DNA of 64,000 bases, taken from NCBI GenBank assembly GCA_016722945.1, contig JAEQMT010000010.1:62001-126000 (forward strand), given 5' to 3'. A model generated the notes under the pieces. It ran no database searches and was not told the DNA's origin. It saw only the letters and a program-made list of their open reading frames with translations. This DNA comes from Desulfofustis sp. PB-SRB1 (GTDB taxonomy: Bacteria; Desulfobacterota; Desulfobulbia; Desulfobulbales; Desulfocapsaceae). The position numbers and the translations under genes were made by a program. Position 1 is the first letter of the stretch. The number at the start of each line of letters is the position of its first letter. Positions 40,427 through 54,684 of this stretch are shown one piece after another.

Positions 40427-40565
40427 GGGAATCATGAAAGATGAGAATGTTTGTTCAAGATCGATGCGCGAGGAAAATTTTACCGCAGTCCGACCCAATC
40501 TTTCGAGGATACAATTTTTTGCGCAACGATGAGGTTGTGCGAAAAGGCTATTTTGCAAGGCTTCC
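40427..40565. mobile_element. 141-bp MITE family, copy 4 (inverted)
   Basis: Relative to copies 2 and 3 it is in the opposite orientation: it begins GGGAATCATGAAAGATGAG and ends TTTTGCAAGGCTTCC. The 4-bp direct duplication TCAT (40423-40426 and 40566-40569) flanks it. It lies directly before the RACo start codon (40589), so it may form that gene's leader or have displaced its promoter. Confidence 0.8.
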
Positions 40566-40588
40566 TCATAACATCAACCGATTTACTG

Positions 40589-42550
40589 ATGGGAACACAC
40601 CGGATCACATTTCTGCCTCATCAGCGCACCATCGACGTTGAAGATGGTGAGCGCTTGCTGCGTGCCGCCATGCTTGGCGGGGTTCACATCAACGCCTCCT
40701 GCGGTGGTGAGGGTTTCTGCGGTAAATGCCGGGTACTGGTTGAAGAGGGTGCGGTAGAAGCAGGGGTTTCAGAGCAGCTTTGCGCCGAAGACATCGAGCA
40801 GGGGTACCGGCTCGCCTGTTTAGCCACGGTGCGTGAAGACGCCACTATTCGTGTTCCCCTGGAGTCATCTATTGACCGCAGCGTTGTCGCCGCCCAGGTG
40901 CAGCCGCGTCGTACCGCGTCGATCAGGCAGATGGACTTTGAGGCGCTCAAGGAGCAGGGGCTGTTCAGTCCGCCGGTGGAAAAGGCCTACCTTGAACTGC
41001 CACCCCCCGATGCGCAGAACAACATGCCCGATGTGACCAGGCTGATCGAGTGCCTCAAACTGCAGGCGGATGAGCACAAGCTTGAGCTGACCATGGGAGT
41101 GATTCGGAAACTACCGAAGATCCTGCGTGATTCCGACTTCAAGGTTACCATTAATATGGTACGGCCGGTACGCCAAGACGGCAAGACGATCATTACCGAT
41201 GTCCAGCCGGGCGATACCCGTGCCGAAAACTATGCCATCGCTCTTGATATCGGGACAACCACCATTTACGCTCAGCTTATCGATCTGATCAGCGGCGCCA
41301 CCATTGCCGAGGCAGGTGATTTCAACGGCCAGATCAGCTACGGTGAGGACGTCATCAGCCGGATCATCTTCGCGGAAAAACCGGGCGGTCTCGATACCCT
41401 GCAAAAGGCGGTGGTGGGTACCATCAACAAGGTACTGGGCGCCCTGTTTACCAATTCGGACATCGATAAACAGTACGTTTCCACCATCACCATGGCCGGC
41501 AACACCACCATGACCCAACTGCTGCTGGCCATTGATCCGCGTTACCTGCGGCGTGCTCCGTATGTGCCGGCATCTACCCTCTATCCCCCACTTGATGCCA
41601 CAGCTCTGGGTCTTGATCTGGGTGAGCATGTCATTGCGCTGCTGTTCCCGGTGGTCTCCAGCTATGTCGGCGGCGATATCGTAGCCGGCATCATGGGCAC
41701 CGGGCTCTATCGGGAGGAGCCACTGACCCTGTTTCTCGATATCGGTACCAATGCCGAGATCGTGATCGGCAATAAGGACTGGCTGGCCTGCACCGCCTGT
41801 TCCGCCGGTCCCGCATTTGAAGGCGGCGGCATCGAGTTCGGGATGCGGGCGGCACGCGGGGCGATCGAGGATATCTCCTTTGATCCGGCGAGCTACGAGC
41901 CCATGCTGCTCACCATCGGTGACGTACGTCCCAAAGGAATTTGCGGCTCCGGGTTGATCGCTACGGTAGCGGTCATGTTCGAAATGGGGATGATCAACAA
42001 CCGTGGTAAATTCAACCGTGACCTGCCGACAGCGCGGATCAGGGAAACCGGCGGGGTCTGGGAATTTGTTCTGGTCTGGGCCGAACAGAGCGCGATCAAT
42101 CGCGACATAACCTTGTCGGAGATCGATGTCGATAATCTCATTCGCGCCAAAGGGGCGGTCTACAGCGGCTGTCTGACCCTGCTCGAAGAGGTCGGCCTGG
42201 GCATGGAGATGGTGGAGCGCATCATTTTGGCGGGCGGGTTCGGCAGCTATATCGATCTGGAAAAAGCGATGACTATCGGTCTGCTGCCGGAGATTGATCC
42301 GGAACGGGTGATTTTTGTCGGCAACGGTTCACTTATGGGCGCCCGGATGAGTGCGCTTACCAATCGGATGCGACGCGATGTGGTGCAGGTAAACAAGATG
42401 ATGACCAACTTCGAGCTCTCGGAGACTCCGTCCTATATGGATCATTACGTTGCCGCCATGTTCATTCCGCACACCGAGATCGAAAAATTTCCCGGCGTCA
42501 AGGCACGCCTTCAGGCGCGGGAGACAGAGAGGCAGAGCACGGGGAATTGA
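40589..42550 (+). CDS. Reductive activator of corrinoid Fe-S protein (RACo)
   Basis: A 653-residue protein of the corrinoid-activator family: N-terminal 2Fe-2S ferredoxin domain (CGGEGFCGKCRVLVEEG plus a fourth Cys in RLACLATV), a linker and middle domain, and a C-terminal ASKHA ATPase (ALDIGTTTIYAQLID; LFLDIGTNAEIVIGN; LAGGFGSYIDLEKAM). It uses ATP to drive reduction of the inactive Co(II) corrinoid of AcsCD. The start is ATG 40589 (the frame is open from 40451 through the MITE). It is first in the CODH/ACS region. Confidence 0.9.
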   Translation: MGTHRITFLPHQRTIDVEDGERLLRAAMLGGVHINASCGGEGFCGKCRVLVEEGAVEAGVSEQLCAEDIEQGYRLACLATVREDATIRVPLESSIDRSVVAAQVQPRRTASIRQMDFEALKEQGLFSPPVEKAYLELPPPDAQNNMPDVTRLIECLKLQADEHKLELTMGVIRKLPKILRDSDFKVTINMVRPVRQDGKTIITDVQPGDTRAENYAIALDIGTTTIYAQLIDLISGATIAEAGDFNGQISYGEDVISRIIFAEKPGGLDTLQKAVVGTINKVLGALFTNSDIDKQYVSTITMAGNTTMTQLLLAIDPRYLRRAPYVPASTLYPPLDATALGLDLGEHVIALLFPVVSSYVGGDIVAGIMGTGLYREEPLTLFLDIGTNAEIVIGNKDWLACTACSAGPAFEGGGIEFGMRAARGAIEDISFDPASYEPMLLTIGDVRPKGICGSGLIATVAVMFEMGMINNRGKFNRDLPTARIRETGGVWEFVLVWAEQSAINRDITLSEIDVDNLIRAKGAVYSGCLTLLEEVGLGMEMVERIILAGGFGSYIDLEKAMTIGLLPEIDPERVIFVGNGSLMGARMSALTNRMRRDVVQVNKMMTNFELSETPSYMDHYVAAMFIPHTEIEKFPGVKARLQARETERQSTGN

Positions 42551-42590
42551 TGATAATTAGGTGTCACAGTGAAGTACTTCTTGCAACTGC

Positions 42591-42634
42591 ATCGAAAATA
42601 ATGAATTATTGTATCGATTATAATGAATTTTTGT
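42591..42634. repeat. 22-bp tandem repeat upstream of acsD
   Basis: Two head-to-tail units (42591-42612, 42613-42634) share ATCGANNATAATGAATTNTTGT, differing at three positions. They lie 141 bp before the acsD start, with TTGTGC and TATAGG spaced by about 17 bp following, so they may be part of a regulated promoter. Confidence 0.5.
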
Positions 42635-42774
42635 GCGACAAATTCTTTGGTAGTATAGGAGAAGCGATTTTTATGGTGAAACGGTGAAATGAGCCGGTGA
42701 TGATCACAGTTCTCGGTCCAGCCCGGTCATTACAGCCATCGGTGCGATTAACATTTACCTGAAAGGAGGCTGAC

Positions 42775-44346
42775 GTGGCATTTGCAATCAACAAGGAATC
42801 CTACACCGGAACCATTCGAGAGATCACGATTGGTAAAGGTGACCGTGCGTTTTCCGTCGGCGGTGATGCAGCGTATCCGTTTTATACCTTTGAAGGAGAG
42901 ATGCCCAACCGGCCGGTGATTGCCATGGAGATCTGGGACATGGAGCCCACCGATTGGCCGGAAGCGGCCCGCGCCCCCTTTGCTGACGTACTTGGCGACC
43001 CGGCCGCGTGGGCGAAAAAGTGCGTAGAGGAATATGGCGCCCAGGCCATCGTCCTGCAACTCAAGAGCATCGATCCCAATGACCAGGACGCCACCCCCGA
43101 AGCCGCCGCTGAGACGGTGAAAAAGGTGTTGGCGGCTATTGATGTACCGCTGATTGTCTGGGGGTGCGCCACCCCTGCCAAGGATGAAGAGGTGATGAAG
43201 GCCGTTTCTGAGGCCTGCCAGAACGAGAATCTCCTGCTTGGCCCGGTCGAGGAAAAAAATTACAAGGGTATCGCTGCCGCCGCCATGGGGTACGGGCACT
43301 CGCTGATTTCTTCCTCGCCCATTGATGTAAACCTGGCCAAGCAGATCAATATATTGCTGGAAAATTTCGGCATGCCGATGGATCGCATCGTCGTCGATCC
43401 CACCACCGGTGGTTTGGGGTACGGCATGGAGTACAGCTACTCGGTAATGGAGCGTTTGACCATGGCGGCGCTCAGCCAGGGTGATGACAAATTGCAATAC
43501 CCGATGATCAACAACCTTGGCAATGAGGTATGGAAGTGTAAGGAAGCCAAGCAGACGGTGGAAGAAGCGCCGACCCTTGGCGATCCCGAGCGCCGTGCCA
43601 TTCTGATGGAGGCGGTGGGAGCGGCCACCTATCTGCTGGCCGGCTCCAACATCCTGATCATGCGTCACCCCGAATCGATCCGGTTGGTCAAATCGTACAT
43701 CAAAGCCTTGTATGAGGGTGGTGCGTTGGCAGATGTCGCTCCCATCAGCAAGCGGCTGGCTGAGGTTTCAGTGGATTTTGCCGCCCTGGCGCCGGCGCTT
43801 GATCTGAGCATTGAGGAAGAAGCCAAGGCCGCCCCCGCCGCCAAAGCGGAACCGGCTGCCCCGGTCGCCCCGGCCGCACCGCAAGCTGAGGAAAAACCAG
43901 CTGCCGCGGCGGCCGTTCCAGAACAACCGGCACCGGCGCCGCAACCCGCCGCCCCAGCCGCGCCCGAGGTAGATGCCCAGGCTGAGGCGGAAGCGGCTGT
44001 CAAGGCAAAAGCAGAAGCCGAAGCCAAGGTTAAAGCAGAGGCCGAAGCCAAGGCTAAAGCGGAAGCAGAGGCCAAAGCCAAGGCGGAAGCAGCGGCTAAG
44101 GCCAAGGCTGAAGCAGAGGCTAAGGCAAAAGAAGAGGCGGAAAAACAGGCCGCCGCAGAGGCACGGGCTGCCCGTGACACGGCGGAAAAAGAGCTGCGGG
44201 CCAAACGCGCCAGGGAGAAAGCGGCCCTTGCCGCGAAGCGAACGGCGACGCCGCGGGAAGAAAAAACCATGACCCCTGCCGCCATTCAGAAAAGCGAGCA
44301 GGAAAAAATGCTGGAGCGACTCAACAGGTTCCATAAACGCGGGTAA
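42775..44346 (+). CDS. acsD: Corrinoid Fe-S protein small subunit with long C-terminal extension
   Basis: Residues 1 to about 340 are a normal CoFeSP beta (AcsD/CdhD) subunit: FEGEMPNRPVIAMEIWDM, QLKSIDPNDQDATPEAAAET, DPTTGGLGYGMEYSYSVMER. From about residue 343 to 523 comes an extra Ala/Pro-rich linker and a Lys/Ala/Glu-rich segment with AKAEAEAKAKAEAEA-type repeats, predicted to be a long charged helix or coiled coil, ending in a basic tail. Usual AcsD length is about 310-330. GTG start behind AAAGGAGG. It binds the methyl-carrying corrinoid with AcsC. Confidence 0.93.
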   Translation: MAFAINKESYTGTIREITIGKGDRAFSVGGDAAYPFYTFEGEMPNRPVIAMEIWDMEPTDWPEAARAPFADVLGDPAAWAKKCVEEYGAQAIVLQLKSIDPNDQDATPEAAAETVKKVLAAIDVPLIVWGCATPAKDEEVMKAVSEACQNENLLLGPVEEKNYKGIAAAAMGYGHSLISSSPIDVNLAKQINILLENFGMPMDRIVVDPTTGGLGYGMEYSYSVMERLTMAALSQGDDKLQYPMINNLGNEVWKCKEAKQTVEEAPTLGDPERRAILMEAVGAATYLLAGSNILIMRHPESIRLVKSYIKALYEGGALADVAPISKRLAEVSVDFAALAPALDLSIEEEAKAAPAAKAEPAAPVAPAAPQAEEKPAAAAAVPEQPAPAPQPAAPAAPEVDAQAEAEAAVKAKAEAEAKVKAEAEAKAKAEAEAKAKAEAAAKAKAEAEAKAKEEAEKQAAAEARAARDTAEKELRAKRAREKAALAAKRTATPREEKTMTPAAIQKSEQEKMLERLNRFHKRG

Positions 44347-44358
44347 CCTGATTTGCTT

Positions 44359-44380
44359 GCCGATCAAAGATCGGCTTATT
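44359..44380 (+). promoter_or_regulatory. Intercistronic hairpin acsD-acsA
   Basis: GCCGATC-AAA-GATCGGC, a 7-bp stem with 3-nt loop, followed by TTATT, inside the 60-bp acsD-acsA gap. It may mark RNA processing or partial termination. Confidence 0.6.
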
Positions 44381-44406
44381 TATTATTTAAGTTGGGAGGT
44401 ACACAA

Positions 44407-46437
44407 ATGGCAGATGTGAAAGAAAAAACCATAGCAAAGGATCCCAAGCTGGCGAACGCACGTGAGGCATCCATTGATCCGGCAACCCAGGAAATGCTGC
44501 TGCGGGCGCAGGAACTGAAAATCGACACTGTGTTTGACCGCGCCGTGACCATGAAGCCGTGCGCTATCGGATTGCAGGGTATTTGTTGTAAAAACTGTGC
44601 CATGGGGCCGTGCCGTCTGCCCTTGCCCAAGGGCGGGATTGACGGTGAGGATACCCGTAAGGGACTCTGCGGCGCCACCGCCAATACCATCTGCGCGCGC
44701 AATTTCATCCGAATGATCGCCGCCGGCGCCGCCGCCCATTCCGACCATGGCCGGTCGGTGGCCGAGGTGTTTCTCTCGGTGGCACGCAAAGAGACCCAAG
44801 ACTACAAGATCAAAGATCCCATTAAACTGCTTGATATCGCCCCTCATTTCGGTGTTGCCACCACCGTGGAGGTGGACGGTAAGACCGTTGATCGTGATCT
44901 TGATGAAATTGCCCTTGAGGTGGCCGAGGCCGCCTATAACGAGTGGGGCAAGCCGGAAGGTACGCTGAATTATATTAAGCGCGCACCGCAGGCCTTGCAG
45001 GAAAAATGGAAGCGTGAGGGGGTTGAACCGCGCAATGTGGATAGAGAGATTGTCGAGATCATGCATCGCACCCACATGGGCGTCGATCAGGATTACAAGA
45101 ACCTGATGAAGCAGGGCACCCGCGCCGCGCTGGCGGACGGCTGGGGCGGCTCCATGCTGGCCACCGATCTGCAGGACGTGATGTTCGGCACCCCCTCACC
45201 CCTGCAGTCCGAGGTCAATCTCGGGGTCATGAAAGAAGATCACGTCAATATCATCGTGCACGGCCATGAGCCGGTGCTCTCCGAGATGATCGTGGCCGCC
45301 GCTCAGAGCCAGGAGATGGTTGCCTATGCCCAGGAAAAAGGGGCCAAGGGCATTCAACTCTCCGGTATCTGTTGTACCGCCAACGAGGTGCTGCAACGTC
45401 ATGGCGTACCGCCGGCGGGGACCTTCCTGCAACAGGAACTGGCGATTATCACCGGCGCCTGTGACGCCATGGTGGTAGACGTCCAGTGCGTCTTCCAGAA
45501 TCTGGCAAATGTCGCCAAGTGTTTTCATACCAAACTGATCACCACTCATCCCATCGCCAAAATGGAACAGGAAAACGTGGTACACATCGAGTTTGACGAG
45601 CACCACGCCATGGAAGATGCCATCAAGATCGTCAAGATGGCCATCGACAACTTCCAGAACCGCGGCGCCGAGGTGATGATTCCGCGTCATAAGGCCGCCC
45701 AGATCGCCGGCTTCGGCGTTGAATCCATCAGGTACCATCTGGGTGGTTCGTTCCGCGGTGATTATTACACCCTTAACGACAACATCATCAACGGCCGCAT
45801 CCGTGGTCTGGCCGGCATCGTCGGTTGCAACAACGCCCGCACCAAGCATAACGAAGAGCATATCGAGATCATGAAGGAATTGATCAAGAACGACGTGCTT
45901 GTTCTCACCACCGGATGTAGTGCAATCGCGGCCGGTATGCATGGCCTGCTTACCCCGGGCGCCGCCTCCGTGCACTGCGGCCCGGGTCTGGCCGAGGTCT
46001 GCGAGACGGTAGGGATCCCGCCGGTGCTGCATCTTGGCTCCTGCGTCGATAACAGCCGCATCCTGCTGGCCGCCACCGAGGTGGTGAAGGCGGGTGGTCT
46101 GGGCAACGACATCTCCGATCTTCCGGCGGCCGGCAGCGCGCCTGAATGGATGAGTGAGAAGGCCATCTCCATCGGCCAGTACTTCGTCGCCTCCGGCGTC
46201 TATGTCGTCTTCGGCTACCATATGCCGCTTGAAGGAGCCCCGGAGTTCAAGGATTATCTCTATCAGGAGATGGAAAAAATCTACGGCGGCAAGTGGGACT
46301 GCGAGCCCGATCCCATCAAGCATGCCCATAAGATCATCGCCCACATCGACGCCAAGCGCAAGGCGCTGGGCATCGACAAGGCGCGCGAGCGGGTCTTGAT
46401 GGATATGGCCGATCGTCAGGCTCTGGCTATGGAGTAA
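44407..46437 (+). CDS. acsA: Carbon monoxide dehydrogenase catalytic subunit
   Basis: A 676-residue Ni-Fe-S CODH of the bifunctional acetogenic type. The N-terminal cluster motif is GICCKNCAMGPCRLPLPKGG; later are GICCTANEVLQRHGVP, VVDVQCVFQN, GIVGCNNART, LTTGCSAIAAG and LHLGSCVDNSRI, which supply the C-cluster Cys and His ligands. The start ATG 44407 follows GGGAGGT. It interconverts CO2 and CO for the acetyl-CoA synthase encoded next. Confidence 0.95.
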   Translation: MADVKEKTIAKDPKLANAREASIDPATQEMLLRAQELKIDTVFDRAVTMKPCAIGLQGICCKNCAMGPCRLPLPKGGIDGEDTRKGLCGATANTICARNFIRMIAAGAAAHSDHGRSVAEVFLSVARKETQDYKIKDPIKLLDIAPHFGVATTVEVDGKTVDRDLDEIALEVAEAAYNEWGKPEGTLNYIKRAPQALQEKWKREGVEPRNVDREIVEIMHRTHMGVDQDYKNLMKQGTRAALADGWGGSMLATDLQDVMFGTPSPLQSEVNLGVMKEDHVNIIVHGHEPVLSEMIVAAAQSQEMVAYAQEKGAKGIQLSGICCTANEVLQRHGVPPAGTFLQQELAIITGACDAMVVDVQCVFQNLANVAKCFHTKLITTHPIAKMEQENVVHIEFDEHHAMEDAIKIVKMAIDNFQNRGAEVMIPRHKAAQIAGFGVESIRYHLGGSFRGDYYTLNDNIINGRIRGLAGIVGCNNARTKHNEEHIEIMKELIKNDVLVLTTGCSAIAAGMHGLLTPGAASVHCGPGLAEVCETVGIPPVLHLGSCVDNSRILLAATEVVKAGGLGNDISDLPAAGSAPEWMSEKAISIGQYFVASGVYVVFGYHMPLEGAPEFKDYLYQEMEKIYGGKWDCEPDPIKHAHKIIAHIDAKRKALGIDKARERVLMDMADRQALAME

Positions 46438-46462
46438 ACCGGTACGCCAACCGATTGTTACG

Positions 46463-46496
46463 GCAACCCTGGAACATGAATGTGTTCCGGGGTTGC
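46463..46496 (+). promoter_or_regulatory. Strong intercistronic hairpin acsA-acsB
   Basis: GCAACCCTGGAACA pairs with TGTTCCGGGGTTGC (14 bp, one wobble) around a 6-nt loop, within the 84-bp gap. It is not followed by a T-run, so stabilisation or processing is likelier than full termination. Confidence 0.7.
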
Positions 46497-46521
46497 TTCA
46501 TGTTCATATGAGGAGGAACGA

Positions 46522-48735
46522 ATGTCCAGACTAGTCGCATTTGCCGCCATTCAAGGCGGCTATCAAGTCGTGGCCCAAGCTGACGGCGAACTGGAGAGAG
46601 CGCTGCAGAGTTATGATGCGTCCACCAAGATCGGCTTTGGCAACACCGCCTATTATCTGCCGGTTATCTATTCGCTGACCGGCATCAAATGTGAGACCCT
46701 CGAGGATCTGAAAAAACCCCTCGAATTTGCCCGCGGTCTGTTGCCGCCGCATCTCAAGGGGCACAACCACCTGCCGTATCTCGGACCGCTGCTGGATGCG
46801 GGGATGGCGGGTATTTTCGCTTACGAGGTGAAAGAGGCCCTGCGCATCCTGGCGGAGCCTGATTTTTATACCTTTACCGAAGACCCTGATCCAGGCGCCG
46901 GCAAGCTCTGGGTGGGGCCTGCTGATGACACCATTTTACGAAAACGCGGGGTCGAGTTCGTAGACGGTTCCGCCCCCGGCTTTGCCGCCGTGGTTGGCGC
47001 CGCTCCAGATGCTGAAACGGCCAAGATGATTATCGAAGATTACCAGAAGAAGAGCCTCTATATATTCTGCGCCGCCAACCATAACGGCAAGACCGCCATC
47101 GAGCAGTGTCTCGAGGCGGGCATGCAGGTTGGCTGGAATACCCGAATCGTGCCCTTTGGCCCCGATATTTCCTCCGCCGTTTTTGCCCTTGGGTTCGCTA
47201 ATCGTGCCGCCATGGCATTCGGTGGGGTTGAGCCGGGTGATCACCGGCGCATGCTGATCTACAACAAGAACCGGATTTTTGCCTTCGTCAACGCCCTGGG
47301 CGATGTCGGCACCGAGTGGGCGGTGGCGGCCGCCGGCGCGGTTAACTGGGGCTTTCCGACCCTGGCCGATACCGATATTCCGGAAATTCTGCCCACCGGC
47401 ATCTGTACCTACGAGCATGTGGTGGCAAATGTGCCCCATGACGAGATCTGCCAGAAATCGGTGGAGGTTCGCGGCCTGAAGATCAACGTCACCGAGATCG
47501 ATATCCCCCTCGCCTTCGGTCCGGCCTTTGAGGGTGAGCGTGTTCGCGGCGCCGATCTCTATGCCCAGACCGGCGGCGGCAAGACCCAGTGCACCGAGCT
47601 GGTCAAGATGGCCGACATGAAGGAGATCGACGACGGCAAGGTAGAGGTGGTGGGCCCCGATCTGGGCGATGTCCAGGAAGGCGGAACCCTGCCGCTGGGT
47701 ATCTACGTGCAGATTGCCGGGCGTGAGTTTCAGGAGGACTTCGAGCCCATCATGGAGCGGCAGATTCACCATCTCATCAACTACATCCAGGGCGTCATGC
47801 ACATCGGTCAGCGCGACATCTCCTGGGTGCGCATCTCCAAGGCGGCCGTTGAAAAAGGGTTTACCCTGAAAGATATCGGGGTAGTGCTGCACGCCAAGTT
47901 CCACCAGGATTTTCAGAAGATTGTCGACAAGGTGCAGGTCACCCTCTTTACCAAAGCCGAAGATGTGGAAAAACTCACCGAACGGGCCCGCGCCGAGTAT
48001 AAGAAGCGCGACGAACGGGTGGATACCATGACCGACGAGGACGTGGAGACCTTCTACTCCTGCACCCTGTGTCAGTCCTTTGCCCCCAGCCATGTCTGCA
48101 CCGTGAGCCCGGAGCGAACCGGCCTCTGCGGCGCGTATAACTGGATGGATTGCAAGGCATCCTTTGAGATCAACCCCACCGGCCCCAACCAGCCGGTAAA
48201 CAAGGGCAAGGTGCTCGATCCGGTACTGGGACGTTTTGAAGGGGTGGATGAATTCATCAAAGGCGCCTCCAAAGGGGCGATTGAGACCTATAACTTCTAT
48301 TCCATGGTCAATGCTCCCATGACCACCTGCGGCTGTTGCGAATGTATCGCTGCCATGCTGCCGTCCTGCAACGGCATTATGACGGTCAATCGCGATTACG
48401 CCGGTGAGACCCCATGCGGTATGAAGTTCACCACCCTGGCCGGTGTAATGGGTGGTGGCGCCTCTTCTCCGGGATTCGTCGGCCATTCCAAGTTCAACAT
48501 CACCCAGAAGAAGTTTATTACCGGTGATGGCGGATTGCTCCGCATGGTATGGATGCCCAAGGTGCTCAAGGATGAGATTGGCGAACGGCTTAATGCCCGT
48601 GGTAAAGAAATGGGCATCGACAACTTCGTCGATATGATTGCCGATGAGACGGTGGGACTCACCGAGGACGAGATTCTGCCGTTCCTGCAGGAAAAAGGCC
48701 ATCCCGCCCTCAACATGGATTCTTTAATCGGCTAA
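46522..48735 (+). CDS. acsB: CO-methylating acetyl-CoA synthase
   Basis: A 737-residue AcsB subunit. The A-cluster Fe-S ligands are CTLCQSFAPSHVC (CX2CX8C) plus a fourth Cys ten positions on, and the nickel-bridging CGC is in TTCGCCECIAAM. The N-terminal CODH-binding domain is present, so this is the full acetogenic form and not the short archaeal one. ATG 46522 follows GAGGAGG. It joins methyl, CO and CoA to make acetyl-CoA, or runs in reverse for acetate oxidation. Confidence 0.95.
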   Translation: MSRLVAFAAIQGGYQVVAQADGELERALQSYDASTKIGFGNTAYYLPVIYSLTGIKCETLEDLKKPLEFARGLLPPHLKGHNHLPYLGPLLDAGMAGIFAYEVKEALRILAEPDFYTFTEDPDPGAGKLWVGPADDTILRKRGVEFVDGSAPGFAAVVGAAPDAETAKMIIEDYQKKSLYIFCAANHNGKTAIEQCLEAGMQVGWNTRIVPFGPDISSAVFALGFANRAAMAFGGVEPGDHRRMLIYNKNRIFAFVNALGDVGTEWAVAAAGAVNWGFPTLADTDIPEILPTGICTYEHVVANVPHDEICQKSVEVRGLKINVTEIDIPLAFGPAFEGERVRGADLYAQTGGGKTQCTELVKMADMKEIDDGKVEVVGPDLGDVQEGGTLPLGIYVQIAGREFQEDFEPIMERQIHHLINYIQGVMHIGQRDISWVRISKAAVEKGFTLKDIGVVLHAKFHQDFQKIVDKVQVTLFTKAEDVEKLTERARAEYKKRDERVDTMTDEDVETFYSCTLCQSFAPSHVCTVSPERTGLCGAYNWMDCKASFEINPTGPNQPVNKGKVLDPVLGRFEGVDEFIKGASKGAIETYNFYSMVNAPMTTCGCCECIAAMLPSCNGIMTVNRDYAGETPCGMKFTTLAGVMGGGASSPGFVGHSKFNITQKKFITGDGGLLRMVWMPKVLKDEIGERLNARGKEMGIDNFVDMIADETVGLTEDEILPFLQEKGHPALNMDSLIG

Positions 48736-48744
48736 ACGGGCAGT

Positions 48745-48772
48745 GTCCCGGCCGCCTGGGCGCGGCCGGGAC
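48745..48772 (+). promoter_or_regulatory. Strong intercistronic hairpin acsB-acsC
   Basis: An 11-bp perfect GC-rich stem, GTCCCGGCCGC and its complement, with a 6-nt loop, followed by CTCATTTT; it lies in the 73-bp gap before acsC. Attenuation of downstream genes is possible. Confidence 0.7.
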
Positions 48773-48808
48773 CTCATTTTAATGAACTTCAGATAAGGAG
48801 AAGGACCA

Positions 48809-50152
48809 ATGGCACTAACCGGTATGCAAATTTTCAAGCTCCTGCCGAAGACAAACTGCAAGGAGTGTGGTGTGCCGACCTGCCTTGCCTTTGCCATGAA
48901 TTTAGCCTCGGGAAAGGCGGAACTCGATTCCTGTCCGTACGTATCCGATGAGGCGCGGGCGCAGTTGGAGGAGGCCTCGGCCCCGCCCATCCGTCAGGTT
49001 ATGGTGGGAAAAGGGGTGCGCAAAGCAAATACCGGCGGGGAAACCGTGTTGTACCGGCACGAGAAGACCTTTTACAACCAGACCCTGTTCGCCGCCGTGA
49101 TCACTGCCGATACCCCGGCCGCTGAGATCGATGCGAAACTCAAAGCGTGGAACGCGCTGCAATTCGAACGGGTGGGCTTTAATCTTCGCCCCGAGCTGGT
49201 GGCCGTCAAGGATACCGGCGGCGACGGCGCCGCCTTTGCGGCGGTTGCCAAGCAGGTAGCCGAGACCTCCGAGTTCAACCTGATTTTGATGAGCGAAGAT
49301 GCAGGGGTCATGCAGGCCGGCGTTGATGCGTGCGGATTCAAGCGGCCCCTGTTGTACGCGGCCACTGAAGCCAATGTCGATGGCTTTGGCGCCATTGCCA
49401 AGGACAGCGGACTGCCGCTGGCGGTGAAGGCGAACGGGATCGACGGAGTTGCCGCACTCACCGAGAAACTTACCGCCATGGGCCTGAAGGATCTGGTAAT
49501 CGATCCCGGCTCACGGGAGGTGAAAAAGGGGCTGGAGGACATGGTGGCACTGCGCCGGGCGGCGCTGAAGGACGGTAATCGGGCAGTGGGCTTTCCCACC
49601 ATCTGTTTCCCCTGCGAGATGGCCTCCAACCCGGACATGGAAGCGCTGATCGGTGCCATGTATGTGGCCAAATACGGCAGTATCGTGGTGCTCTCGGATT
49701 TTACCGCCGAGGCTGTATTCCCGCTGATGCTGGAGCGGCTTAACGTATACACTGATCCGCAGCGGCCGATGACGGTTACCGAGGGTATCTATGAAATCGG
49801 CAGTCCGGATGAAAATTCCCCGATTCTGGTGACCACTAACTTCGCCCTTACCTACTTCATCGTCTCCGGCGAAGTTGAGGCGAGCAAGGTGCCCACCTGG
49901 CTGCTGATCAAAGATTCCGAAGGGTTGTCGGTGTTAACCGCGTGGGCGGCCGGCAAATTCAGCGGCGATGATGTGGGACTTTTCGTCAAAAAATGCGGAA
50001 TTGCCGACAAGGTAAAGCACAAGGAGGTGATTATCCCCGGCTACGCCGCGGCCATCACCGCCGATGTCGAAGAAGAACTGCCGGAATGGACGGTTACCGT
50101 TGGTCCGCGTGAAGCGGCCCATCTGCCGGCGTTTTTGAAGGCTCGGGCGTAA
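48809..50152 (+). CDS. acsC: Corrinoid Fe-S protein large subunit
   Basis: A 447-residue CoFeSP gamma subunit. The N-terminal 4Fe-4S domain has CKECGVPTC and a Cys 16 residues later (DSCPYV), followed by the TIM barrel and the C-terminal corrinoid-binding domain (GSPDENSPILVTTNFALTYF; AWAAGKFSGDDV). It carries the methyl corrinoid from AcsE to AcsB and is the partner of AcsD. GGAG precedes the ATG. Confidence 0.95.
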   Translation: MALTGMQIFKLLPKTNCKECGVPTCLAFAMNLASGKAELDSCPYVSDEARAQLEEASAPPIRQVMVGKGVRKANTGGETVLYRHEKTFYNQTLFAAVITADTPAAEIDAKLKAWNALQFERVGFNLRPELVAVKDTGGDGAAFAAVAKQVAETSEFNLILMSEDAGVMQAGVDACGFKRPLLYAATEANVDGFGAIAKDSGLPLAVKANGIDGVAALTEKLTAMGLKDLVIDPGSREVKKGLEDMVALRRAALKDGNRAVGFPTICFPCEMASNPDMEALIGAMYVAKYGSIVVLSDFTAEAVFPLMLERLNVYTDPQRPMTVTEGIYEIGSPDENSPILVTTNFALTYFIVSGEVEASKVPTWLLIKDSEGLSVLTAWAAGKFSGDDVGLFVKKCGIADKVKHKEVIIPGYAAAITADVEEELPEWTVTVGPREAAHLPAFLKARA

Positions 50153-50212
50153 GCAAAGCGCAGACAACCATAAACTAAAACAGGCCGCGTAAGGCAGTGA
50201 AGGAGAGAGGAT

Positions 50213-51103
50213 ATGATTTTATTTGGTGAAAGTCTCAACGTAATTTCAAAGAAAATCGGCGCCGCCTTCAAGGAGCGCGATCCCAAGCCGATTCAGGAGG
50301 AGGCCCTGGAGCAGAAGGAAAAGGGGATGGACTATATCGACATCAACCTCGGCCCGGCCAAAAAAGATGGCCATGAGTTGATGCCGTGGGTCTGCCAGAC
50401 GGTACAGGAAGTGGTGCCCGATATGCCCCTGTTGCTCGACACCTCAAACATCGCCGCCATTGAGGAAGGGCTGAAGGTGCTCAAACCGGCAGCAAAACCG
50501 CACATCATCAATTCCATTATGGCGCGACCTGAGCGCTATGAGGCGATGCTGCCCATCGCCGCCAAATACCAGGCCGATATGGTGGCATTGCTGTGGGGGC
50601 CCGATGGGCTGCCGCGCGACGAGAACGAGCGTGCCGCACTCTGCGTGGAGTTGCTCTATGCCGCCAACGAGGCGGGCATACCCAACGAAAAAATCTGGGT
50701 AGACGGCATTGTCACCCCGGTTAACATCCAGCAGCCGCAACTGGTAAGTCTGCTCAATTTCCAGATGATGCTCGAAGATATCGCGCCCGGCGCCATGAGT
50801 ACCTGCGGTTTGTCAAACATCTCCAACGGCCCGCCGGTGGAGATGCGCCCGATTCTTAACACAACCTATATGGTGATGCTCGAGCGCTATGGGATGAAGT
50901 CGTGCATCGCCGATCCCCTGGACGAAAATCTCACCCTGATAGCCAAGGGCAAGCGTCCCGAGGTTGTCGAGATCGTCCATCAGACCATGGATGGGGCCGG
51001 TCCCGATCCGGCCTCGGTGGACAAGGAGCTGGCCGAGTATGTCAAGACCGTCAAGGTGATCATGGGTGAGAGCCTCTACTCCGATTCGTATCTGGAATTG
51101 TAG
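50213..51103 (+). CDS. acsE: Methyltetrahydrofolate:corrinoid Fe-S protein methyltransferase
   Basis: A 296-residue TIM-barrel methyltransferase (pterin-binding, MeTr/AcsE), a little longer than the typical ~262. Motifs include MILFGESLNVISKKIG, MDYIDINLGPAKKDG and STCGLSNISNGPP, the last being a conserved pterin/cobalamin contact loop. It transfers the methyl from methyl-H4folate to AcsC. GGAGAG precedes the ATG. It is the last gene before the terminator. Confidence 0.93.
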   Translation: MILFGESLNVISKKIGAAFKERDPKPIQEEALEQKEKGMDYIDINLGPAKKDGHELMPWVCQTVQEVVPDMPLLLDTSNIAAIEEGLKVLKPAAKPHIINSIMARPERYEAMLPIAAKYQADMVALLWGPDGLPRDENERAALCVELLYAANEAGIPNEKIWVDGIVTPVNIQQPQLVSLLNFQMMLEDIAPGAMSTCGLSNISNGPPVEMRPILNTTYMVMLERYGMKSCIADPLDENLTLIAKGKRPEVVEIVHQTMDGAGPDPASVDKELAEYVKTVKVIMGESLYSDSYLEL

Positions 51104-51743: not shown

Positions 51744-52517
51744 ATGGGACTTAAACTTGCCATCGGCGGCAAAGGCGGGGTTGGCAAAACCACCGTGGCC
51801 GCCCTGCTGGCCCGCTATTTTGCCCGGGCGGGTAATCAGGTAATTGCCATCGATGCCGATCCGGTGAGCAACCTGGCCGCGGCCCTGGGTATCGATGAAC
51901 GTGAACCGATCACCCCCATTGCCGAGCTGGCCGATCTCATCGAGGAACGAACCGGTGCCAAGCCGGGCACCATGGGCGGTTTTTTCACCCTGAATCCGAG
52001 GGTGGATGACATTCCCGAACGTTTTTCCCGCCAGTGTGACGGCGTTCGTTTGCTGGTTATGGGCACCGTACAGAACGGCGGCGGTGGCTGTATCTGCCCG
52101 GAAAGCACGGTGCTCAAGACCCTGATGACCCATCTGGTGCTGCAGCGCGAAGATATTCTCATCATGGACATGGAGGCGGGGGTGGAGCATCTCGGCAGGG
52201 GAACCTCCGGCTCGGTGGATGCCCTGGTGATCGTGGTCAATCCGGGGCTGCGATCCATGCACGCGGCGGATAAAATCAGAAAACTGGGGACCGAGCTGGG
52301 TATCAGGCGGACCGTGGTGCTCGGCAACCGGGTGGATGATGCGGCCGATGAGGAACTGATCAGAACGACCTTGAGTGATTTTGAGATCATCGGATGTCTG
52401 CCTGAGGTAGCTGAGATCAACAGGGCCGATCGCACCGGCGCCAGACCATTTGCGGACATAAGCGCGGCACCGCCTCAGTTGGCCGAGATTGGCGGCGCAC
52501 TGGCGCACCTCGCCTAA
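51744..52517 (+). CDS. cooC: CODH nickel-insertion ATPase CooC/AcsF
   Basis: A 257-residue P-loop NTPase of the MinD/Mrp class: N-terminal GGKGGVGKTT (deviant Walker A with signature Lys), VIAIDADPVSN, the metal-binding CXC in GGGGCICPEST, and LIMDMEAGVEHLGRG. CooC dimers hold nickel at the CXC and mature the CODH C-cluster (and AcsF the A-cluster). It is separated from the main acs operon by the MITE but clearly belongs to it functionally. Confidence 0.93.
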   Translation: MGLKLAIGGKGGVGKTTVAALLARYFARAGNQVIAIDADPVSNLAAALGIDEREPITPIAELADLIEERTGAKPGTMGGFFTLNPRVDDIPERFSRQCDGVRLLVMGTVQNGGGGCICPESTVLKTLMTHLVLQREDILIMDMEAGVEHLGRGTSGSVDALVIVVNPGLRSMHAADKIRKLGTELGIRRTVVLGNRVDDAADEELIRTTLSDFEIIGCLPEVAEINRADRTGARPFADISAAPPQLAEIGGALAHLA

Positions 52518-52584: not shown

Positions 52585-53652
52585 ATGGATAATTTTCTTG
52601 CCAGGGCGCTGCCCACCGGTGTCGGTTCCATGCCCATGCGCGATCACCAGGCCGCCGTTGAGGTCATTGCCAGGTACCTGCCCCAGCTACCGTTCTGGCC
52701 GCAATTGTCTCAATATCGCCAAGAGGGGATGATTAATCAGTTTGCCGCCGCCATGCCCGGGTTGCGTCAGCGCGACAAAACCCCCTATATTGACGTAACA
52801 GTGCCTGAATTTGACCATGAACTGGTTGCTTTTTATGAGGAGTACCTGGCGGCGCACGAAGCGGAGAAGGTTGCCGATGAGAGCCGTTTTTCCATGGGAA
52901 CCAGGGAGAGCGCCGGCTTCTTCGCCCTGCTTGAAACCCTGCACGCGGATGCCGACAACCTGATAAAACTCAAGGGCCAGGTGACCGGACCGGTTACCTT
53001 CTGTATGGCGGTAAAAGACCACGACGGCCGCGCCATCTTCTACAACGAACAACTGCGTGATGCCGCCGTCAAGATGATTGCCCTCAAGGCACGCTGGCAG
53101 GCTGAGAGACTGGCCCGCCTGACACCTGCCCCGATCATCTTTCTCGATGAGCCGGGGCTGGCCGGTTTTGGCTCATCCGCCTTTATAACGGTGAGCGCCG
53201 AAGAGATTGTCGCGGCACTGAGTGAGGTCGTTGCGGCCCTGCATCAGGGAACCGGGCTGGCCGGAGTGCATGTCTGCGCCAACACCGAATGGCCGCTGAT
53301 TTTTGACGCGGGTGCTGATATCGTGAATTTCGACGCCTTTGGTTACTTTGACAAGTTTATCCTCTACCCGGAACAACTGCGCGGCTTTATAGCTCGTGGC
53401 GGGATCATCGCCGGCGGCATTGTCCCCACCAGCCCCGATGACATCGGCAGCCGCACCGCTGAGCAGCTTGTGGATCTCTGGTTCAGCCAGGCGGGCCGGA
53501 TCGGCGAGTTGGGGGTTGAGCTGGAACAAATTTTTAACCAGAGTCTTATTACCCCCAGCTGTGGATTGGGCACGGTTCGCGAGGAACAGGCCATACATAC
53601 GCTTGGCCTGACCCGGGCGGTGTCGGATCTGATCCGGCAACGTTTTGGGTGA
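52585..53652 (+). CDS. Core-MetE type methionine synthase
   Basis: A 355-residue protein corresponding only to the catalytic C-terminal domain of cobalamin-independent methionine synthase (UROD/MetE-like barrel). Zinc ligands are visible as His and Cys in VHVCANTEW and Cys in ITPSCGLGT; EPGLAGFGSS and GQVTGPVTFC are further family blocks. Short core-MetE proteins (MesA-MesD families) use methyl-corrinoid donors instead of folate, and the MesB type occurs with CODH/ACS. Its location next to cooC supports methyl transfer from AcsCD to homocysteine (inference). Its stop overlaps the next frame by GTGA. Confidence 0.82.
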   Translation: MDNFLARALPTGVGSMPMRDHQAAVEVIARYLPQLPFWPQLSQYRQEGMINQFAAAMPGLRQRDKTPYIDVTVPEFDHELVAFYEEYLAAHEAEKVADESRFSMGTRESAGFFALLETLHADADNLIKLKGQVTGPVTFCMAVKDHDGRAIFYNEQLRDAAVKMIALKARWQAERLARLTPAPIIFLDEPGLAGFGSSAFITVSAEEIVAALSEVVAALHQGTGLAGVHVCANTEWPLIFDAGADIVNFDAFGYFDKFILYPEQLRGFIARGGIIAGGIVPTSPDDIGSRTAEQLVDLWFSQAGRIGELGVELEQIFNQSLITPSCGLGTVREEQAIHTLGLTRAVSDLIRQRFG

Positions 53653-53657
53653 AGTCA

Positions 53658-54041
53658 ATGGATAGGATCAGTATTGGATTTGATGAGACCCTGGTTGTTG
53701 ACTGTCAGTGTGTGCTCATCGTTCCTGAAGAGGCCCTGGTGGAAGGGGGCTATATCAAAAAATTCAGTACCAGGGCCGGTGCTCATGATAAACATGAGTT
53801 TCATGCCCTGGCCCAGATGGCTTACTATCAGGCAGAGGACGCGGAACTGGTGCCACGGATTATGGTGGGGTCGTGCAAGATTACAATGGGTGATGAGCAC
53901 GAAGAGCTGACCAGCGGTCTTGTTATCTGGCGTGAAAAATATGGCGCCATCGATGCGGCGGTGCACCAGTGGCTTGCCGCCGGCAAGCTGTTAGCGGCGG
54001 CGCATCGCTTCTGCACAAGATGGATACGGCTTGATATTTGA
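53658..54041 (+). CDS. Unknown protein in the CODH/ACS region
   Basis: A 127-residue soluble protein, not recognised. It starts ISIGFDETLVVDCQCVLIVP (with a CXC) and has PRIMVGSCKITMGDEHEELT, a likely beta-rich core, then an Ala-rich helix (HQWLAAGKLLAAAHRFC). Three or four conserved-looking Cys are spread over it. The start is ATG 53658 (or GTG 53649, overlapping the upstream stop). It is followed within a few bases by the DUF166 gene, so the two are probably co-translated. Confidence 0.6.
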   Translation: MDRISIGFDETLVVDCQCVLIVPEEALVEGGYIKKFSTRAGAHDKHEFHALAQMAYYQAEDAELVPRIMVGSCKITMGDEHEELTSGLVIWREKYGAIDAAVHQWLAAGKLLAAAHRFCTRWIRLDI

Positions 54042-54045
54042 TGGT

Positions 54046-54684
54046 ATGGGTGTGAAAAAACAGCATATTACCGTCTTTCAGCAACACGGCAGCGGCGAGC
54101 GAAAAATCGAAGGGGTGCGCCGCTACGGCGGTGATGATATCGTTCTTGAGGTGGTATCAATCAATGACGAACTGCCGCCGGTCATTGATGACACCAAACC
54201 CTATCTCCCCACTGAGATAAAAGCTGATCTGGTGCTTGATTTTCTCACCCATCCCGATCTCTCCGCTGACTTGGCCGGCCGCTGCGCGCAGAGGCACATT
54301 CCCGTTATCGCCTCGGGCAAAAAGCATCGCGGCGCCACCCTGATCAGCCCGCCCACCTGATGTGGTCTGGCCCGGCAGGAGTGTCTGGGTACCTATGGCG
54401 AGTTGTTCGGAGCCCCTGAATTTGAGGTGGAGGTGGACGGCGGGTTCGTTACCAGTGTTCGCGTCATCCGTGGCGCACCCTGTGGGGCAACCTGGGAGGC
54501 GGCGGCTCCCATAGTCGGTCTGCCGGTGGCGACGGCGGCCCGGGAGATCGGCTTGCAAACCCAGTTTTTCTGCAGCGCCGACCCGGCCGGCTGGGATCCC
54601 CTGCACGGCAAAAGTCCGGTTCACTTTGCCGGTAAAGTTCATCATCAGGCCCTTGCCAGGGCCCTTAAAAAATTAGATTCATAA
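54046..54684 (+). CDS. DUF166 (COG1810) protein with in-frame UGA, putative selenoprotein
   Basis: A continuous 212-residue DUF166 protein if the TGA at 54358-54360 is read through. Before it: ISINDELPPVIDD-like strand, FLTHPDLSADLAGRC, TLISPPT. After it: CGLARQECLGTYG, APEFEVEVDGGFVTSVRVI, RGAPCGATWEAA, and FFCSADPAGWDPLHGKSPVH, all in order and with no further stop. DUF166 proteins have a Cys-Cys at this site (as in PPTCC), so UGA replaces the first Cys as U-C. A hairpin with loop GGAG begins 10 nt later. The start could be ATG 54046 or GTG 54052. A plain nonsense mutation is the alternative. Confidence 0.72.
54358..54389 (+). promoter_or_regulatory. Candidate bacterial SECIS hairpin
   Basis: After UGA (54358-54360) and a 10-nt spacer, CCCGGCA (54371-54377) pairs with UG-CUGGG (54382-54383, 54385-54389) leaving a bulged U at 54384 and an apical GGAG loop (54378-54381). 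The loop starts 18 nt after UGA, close to the fdhF SECIS of E. coli, with G at the first two loop positions and a bulged U. Confidence 0.65.

Follow-up and report, generated by a model that had tools for sequence, protein, structure and literature searches.

The gene at 54046-54684 of the window (the whole 64,000-nucleotide stretch of DNA that was analysed) is most probably dfsP, which encodes a bacterial selenoprotein belonging to the DUF166 family (probability approximately 0.9). From the comparison of homologous genes it appears close to certain that its product is a selenoprotein, in which the TGA at codon 105 encodes selenocysteine (Sec). The selenoprotein status of DfsP is already known, the family having first been listed in 2007, and the window gene is an ordinary member of it. 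What looks to be new is the recurrent company that the wider DUF166 family keeps with genes of the CO dehydrogenase/acetyl-CoA synthase (CODH/ACS) system. DUF166 is annotated as being of unknown function and this association provides a testable idea of its role; with operons in two other families, it would give a selenoprotein so far without a function a place in the Wood-Ljungdahl machinery that can be tested.

The dfsP gene and its in-frame TGA

The features of the gene, all on the forward strand, were as follows.

54046-54684, forward strand: dfsP, putative gene for a DUF166 selenoprotein, 212 codons including a single in-frame TGA (PF02593 E 5.3e-45; NF041372 325 bits)
54358-54360, forward strand: predicted selenocysteine codon TGA, codon 105, motif PPT-U-CGL (TGA in 53/81 and TGC/TGT in 28/81 DfsP genes)
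54361-54363, forward strand: Cys106 codon, invariant across the DUF166 proteins examined
54370-54389, forward strand: predicted SECIS hairpin just 3′ of the UGA (GG loop in 53/53 and pairing 54372/54387 in 53/53 TGA genes)
54481-54483, forward strand: Cys146 codon, motif GAPCGATW, invariant
54571-54573, forward strand: Cys176 codon, motif FFCSAD, invariant
54622-54624, forward strand: His193 codon, invariant in DfsP and kept in 11/12 other DUF166 proteins

The TGA at 54358-54360 was the sole interruption of the 54046-54684 frame. Pfam DUF166 (PF02593) matched residues 10-208 in a single stretch spanning the TGA (E 5.3e-45), which confirms the preliminary description of one TGA within an otherwise open 212-codon frame with DUF166 sequence on both sides. 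The window protein also matched NCBIfam NF041372, a curated equivalog model named 'DUF166 family (seleno)protein DfsP', with 325.2 bits against a cut-off of 200, over profile positions 1-203 of 203. A Sec or Cys immediately N-terminal to the invariant Cys of the P-x-x-[UC]-C-x-L motif, as seen in DfsP, was present. The window gene therefore shares with the NF041372 family, a selenoprotein family of the Desulfobacterota, both a match over the whole length and a UGA at PPT-U-CGL; no feature separating the two was found.

The gene had been put forward as a likely undescribed selenoprotein, which is refuted by the name of the NF041372 model and by two reviews. A 2022 review includes a DUF166 domain-containing protein among the prokaryotic selenoprotein families (PMC9312934), and a 2026 review counts DUF166 among such families, with reference to Zhang and Gladyshev 2007 on the Olavius algarvensis symbiont (PMC13188914). 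Both cite earlier work for the listing and their tables give no function for DUF166. These reviews were the only results of a whole-word literature search for DUF166.

The codon at the Sec site was compared across 81 DfsP genes, consisting of the window gene and 80 loci from GTDB genomes. It was TGA in 53, TGC in 24 and TGT in 4, such that the in-frame UGA was replaced by Cys in 28 homologues, among them the archaeal loci L089 and L090. The cultivated Desulforhopalus singaporensis DSM 12130 and Desulfacinum infernum DSM 9756 have TGA at the site, and Desulfatibacillum alkenivorans has TGC. Each TGA gene carried the motif PPT-U-CGL or a close variant, and many further orthologues within the family to which the window belongs had a single TGA within the frame. 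In a 119-protein tree, in which the Sec-site column was kept but read as Cys in both groups, at least 6 switches between Sec and Cys were found (11 by parsimony); such repeated switching is typical of families with Sec and Cys members. One genome (G190:C1) encoded both a Cys copy and a Sec copy of DfsP (L135 and L161), which form a natural comparison pair.

The hairpin 3′ of the UGA and the selenocysteine machinery

The best fold of the window hairpin began 10 nt past the UGA and had arms at 54371-54377 and 54382-54389 around a GGAG loop (54378-54381), with a 7-bp stem, a bulged U at 54384 and an MFE of -10.4 kcal/mol. Across the family, the hairpin was retained in the 53 TGA genes and not in the 28 Cys genes. 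The loop GG, at offsets 20 and 21 from the UGA, was G in 53/53 TGA genes at both positions, compared to 6/28 and 9/28 Cys genes respectively, and the G at offset 20 was invariant in the TGA genes although it is a third codon position. Offsets 14 and 29 (54372/54387), both also third codon positions, were paired in 53/53 TGA genes (C-G in 29, A-U in 22 and G-C in 2) and in 12/28 Cys genes. In cells paired and covariation score, the structure exceeded 500/500 shuffles and every slid register. The alignment thus points to selection, acting on the nucleotides themselves, for a hairpin that goes with the UGA.

It had been proposed that this hairpin, with a bulged U, fits the bacterial SECIS layout. 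A hairpin was indeed found at this place and the bulged U was present in the best fold of the window, but the family stem was mostly unbulged. The register 54370-54377/54382-54389, where the U of the bulge is paired (G-U or G-C), had 88% of cells paired and a score of 0.29, compared to 79% and 0.09 for the bulged-U register, so the mostly unbulged stem is the better supported candidate for the family SECIS. Like the Escherichia coli fdhF-type bacterial SECIS, the window sequence has a hairpin just 3′ of the UGA and a GG in a 4-nt loop, approximately 17-18 nt after the UGA. It differs from that element in the DfsP consensus, a mostly unbulged 8-pair stem, and in the bulged U lying on the 3′ arm of the window's best fold. 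An Rfam scan at the site gave no SECIS-type match, a result of low informative value given the shortness of the element.

A search of the genome containing the window for selA, selB, selC (tRNA-Sec, searched with Rfam RF01852) and selD found the complete set. SelB, tRNA-Sec and the hairpin 3′ of UGA-105 would then insert Sec beside the invariant cysteine. The selD gene of this genome (L101, G000:C1:254885-255808) itself had one in-frame TGA, so that SelD, too, is probably a selenoprotein in this genome. No other convincing selenoprotein emerged when the remaining window was scanned for read-through frames.

If the TGA were instead a true stop, the locus would be a recent pseudogene, would encode a 104-residue protein only or would contain a sequencing error. 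A standard-code annotation would split the dfsP frame at this codon, and the stability of the window hairpin is by itself unremarkable, with z values of -1.97 (bare 23-nt hairpin) and 0.13 (42 nt) and a synonymous-shuffle p of about 0.2 for its energy, each of which is weak evidence alone. However, 53 orthologues (window included) share a TGA at exactly this codon and all others have Cys, the frame past the TGA is conserved and open, the covarying hairpin occurs only in TGA genes and the genome has the full Sec machinery, all of which make a true stop extremely improbable. Together, the Sec/Cys exchange, the covariation in the SECIS hairpin and the full set of Sec genes give strong support to the selenoprotein reading.

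DUF166 and CODH/ACS genes

The genes upstream of dfsP in the window, all on the forward strand, were as follows.

40451-51103, forward strand: CODH/ACS operon (acsV-like activator, cdhD, CODH, acsB, cdhE and methyl-THF:corrinoid methyltransferase)
51744-52517, forward strand: CooC-like P-loop ATPase, the CooC name being given from its position and P-loop family
52585-53652, forward strand: core methionine synthase-like (MesB-like) gene, weak PRK00957 match below the cut-off
53649-54041, forward strand: orf130, small conserved protein; neither Pfam (E<=10) nor NCBIfam gave a match

The gene order was AcsV-like, CdhD, CODH, AcsB, CdhE, methyltransferase, a small protein, CooC-like, MesB-like, orf130 and dfsP. 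The stop codon of orf130 (130 aa) is at 54039-54041 and the ATG of dfsP is at 54046, leaving a 4-nt gap. Such close spacing, and a gene order that is conserved in Desulfobulbales, make translational coupling of orf130 and dfsP likely. The C-terminal end of Orf130 carries a motif like LLEAAYRYCTRWVRLDI. The MesB-like protein (52585-53652) scored under every curated cut-off, yet its H-C...D...C pattern was kept by eye.

Within the DfsP clade, only Desulfobulbales relatives of the window had the gene adjacent to CODH/ACS; most DfsP-clade genes were located elsewhere, in varied neighbourhoods. An orf130 ahead of dfsP was found in Desulfobulbales only. In some of these (L013, L018, L019, L024 and L030), orf130-dfsP was downstream not of CODH/ACS but of a formate dehydrogenase-like gene with an in-frame TGA (motif CARY-U-HSATVAGL).

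The wider family was examined in 247 genomes of the phylum with at least 90% completeness. DUF166 was present in 54/247 (one below the Pfam cut-off), of which 51 encoded CdhC; the other three had CdhE (two genomes) or a CdhE fragment at a contig edge (one genome). CdhC was also present in 118/193 genomes without DUF166. The co-occurrence of DUF166 and CdhC had a Fisher p of 7e-7, with no correction for phylogeny and confounded by shared ancestry. As CODH/ACS is frequent in genomes without DUF166, DUF166 is not essential to it.

DUF166 was encoded inside the CODH/ACS operon in two families (f19 and f38) outside that of the window. In L129, L130 and L145, it was located between the CODH region and CdhC. 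In L132, L133, L134 and L164, it was the last gene of an acsB-cdhD-cdhE-acsV-mesB-cooC-DUF166 operon; in L134, DUF166 (E 1.1e-44) starts with a GTG that overlaps the cooC stop by 4 nt. In the archaeal loci of one small phylum, bacterial queries found no CODH/ACS gene within about 8 kb of DUF166. We take COG1810 to be DUF166, and the Methanococcus maripaludis genes MMP0976 and MMP0984 presumably lie near each other, judging by their locus numbers. MMP0976 belongs to COG1810 and MMP0984 is a CO dehydrogenase, and both are specific to methanogens and Archaeoglobus (PMC1852104). From the co-occurrence and the operon position we infer that DUF166 probably serves the CODH/ACS system. A tie to corrinoid methyl transfer had been guessed from the one neighbourhood in the window; the association gains support from the 51/54 genomes and the operons in two families, support that does not extend to methyl transfer itself.

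Candidate roles of DUF166 and DfsP

The preliminary description also stated that DUF166 proteins usually have a Cys-Cys pair at the site of the TGA. This holds for the DfsP clade, where a Cys/Sec-Cys pair was present in 107/107 alignment rows, but not for the other DUF166 clade, in which column 105 was Phe (8/12) or Leu (4/12). This second clade, which includes the CODH/ACS-operon proteins (L129, L130, L132-L134, L145 and L164) and L002, has the same PF02593/COG1810 domain and shares with DfsP the universal Cys106, Cys146 and Cys176 and the nearly universal His193. It differs in the Phe/Leu in place of Cys/Sec at column 105 and forms a separate clade (support 100/100). L002, which had about 24-27% identity to the window protein, is encoded by the second DUF166 gene of the genome (G000:C39:16925-17614; L002, L155), which has Phe at the site and is located away from CODH/ACS.

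Across the DUF166 proteins examined, Cys106, Cys146 and Cys176 were invariant and His193 nearly so, and the CODH/ACS-operon proteins additionally had a run such as HHHHPC or HHNHPC. The three invariant cysteines, the near-invariant histidine and this run suggest a metal or Fe-S site. DfsP has a further Cys or Sec directly preceding Cys106. In a confident AlphaFold model of DfsP (pLDDT 95.8, pTM 0.90), the N-terminal half was alpha/beta and the C-terminal half held most of the conserved cysteines. Comparison by fold with the PDB gave no full-length match among the matches listed, only the N-terminal alpha/beta half resembling common Rossmann-like folds (Z about 7-9), and comparison by sequence gave nothing credible.

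CooC is a nickel-insertion ATPase. Given the suggested metal site and the position beside CooC or CdhC, our best guess is that DUF166 may be an accessory for the metal sites of CODH/ACS, handling a metal or Fe-S/Ni site by delivery, reduction or repair. A metal-site role at CODH/ACS is proposed tentatively, at less than even odds, and the fuller reading, in which DfsP would be the selenol version of such an accessory, its Sec making the thiol pair more reactive, is somewhat doubtful. If it is true, selenium would be used to mature or protect an enzyme of the Wood-Ljungdahl pathway.

The earlier view of DfsP as a Sec-Cys redox protein is plausible. In its general form, DfsP would be a thiol-redox selenoprotein that forms a Sec-Cys selenenylsulfide and has no special tie to CODH/ACS, its neighbours being accidental; we consider this possible, if rather unlikely. 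The adjacent U-C motif, the varied neighbourhoods of most DfsP genes and the several Desulfobulbales in which orf130-dfsP follows a formate dehydrogenase selenoprotein agree with it. It is at odds with the presence of CODH/ACS in nearly all DUF166 genomes of the phylum sample, with DUF166 being within the CODH/ACS operon in two other families, and with the invariants of DUF166 being C106, C146, C176 and nearly H193, as the Sec/Cys-Cys pair is not among them.

A role of DUF166/DfsP in the chemistry of methyl groups or corrinoids, working for instance with AcsV or with the MesB-like methionine synthase, is improbable. MesB-like and AcsV-like genes share the DUF166 operon in the window, L132-L134 and L164, and the predicted uptake of methyl groups by MesB from the corrinoid Fe-S protein (PMC7857596) would fit such a role. 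However, in L129 and L130, where DUF166 is flanked by the CODH region and CdhC, no MesB-like gene was found in the vicinity, and a Pfam search detected no corrinoid- or folate-binding family in DfsP. Elsewhere in the window, the 56198-57001 gene, directly downstream of a citrate synthase-like gene, encoded a fusion of DUF3786 with an Fe-S domain resembling the one in the CODH/ACS gamma subunit.
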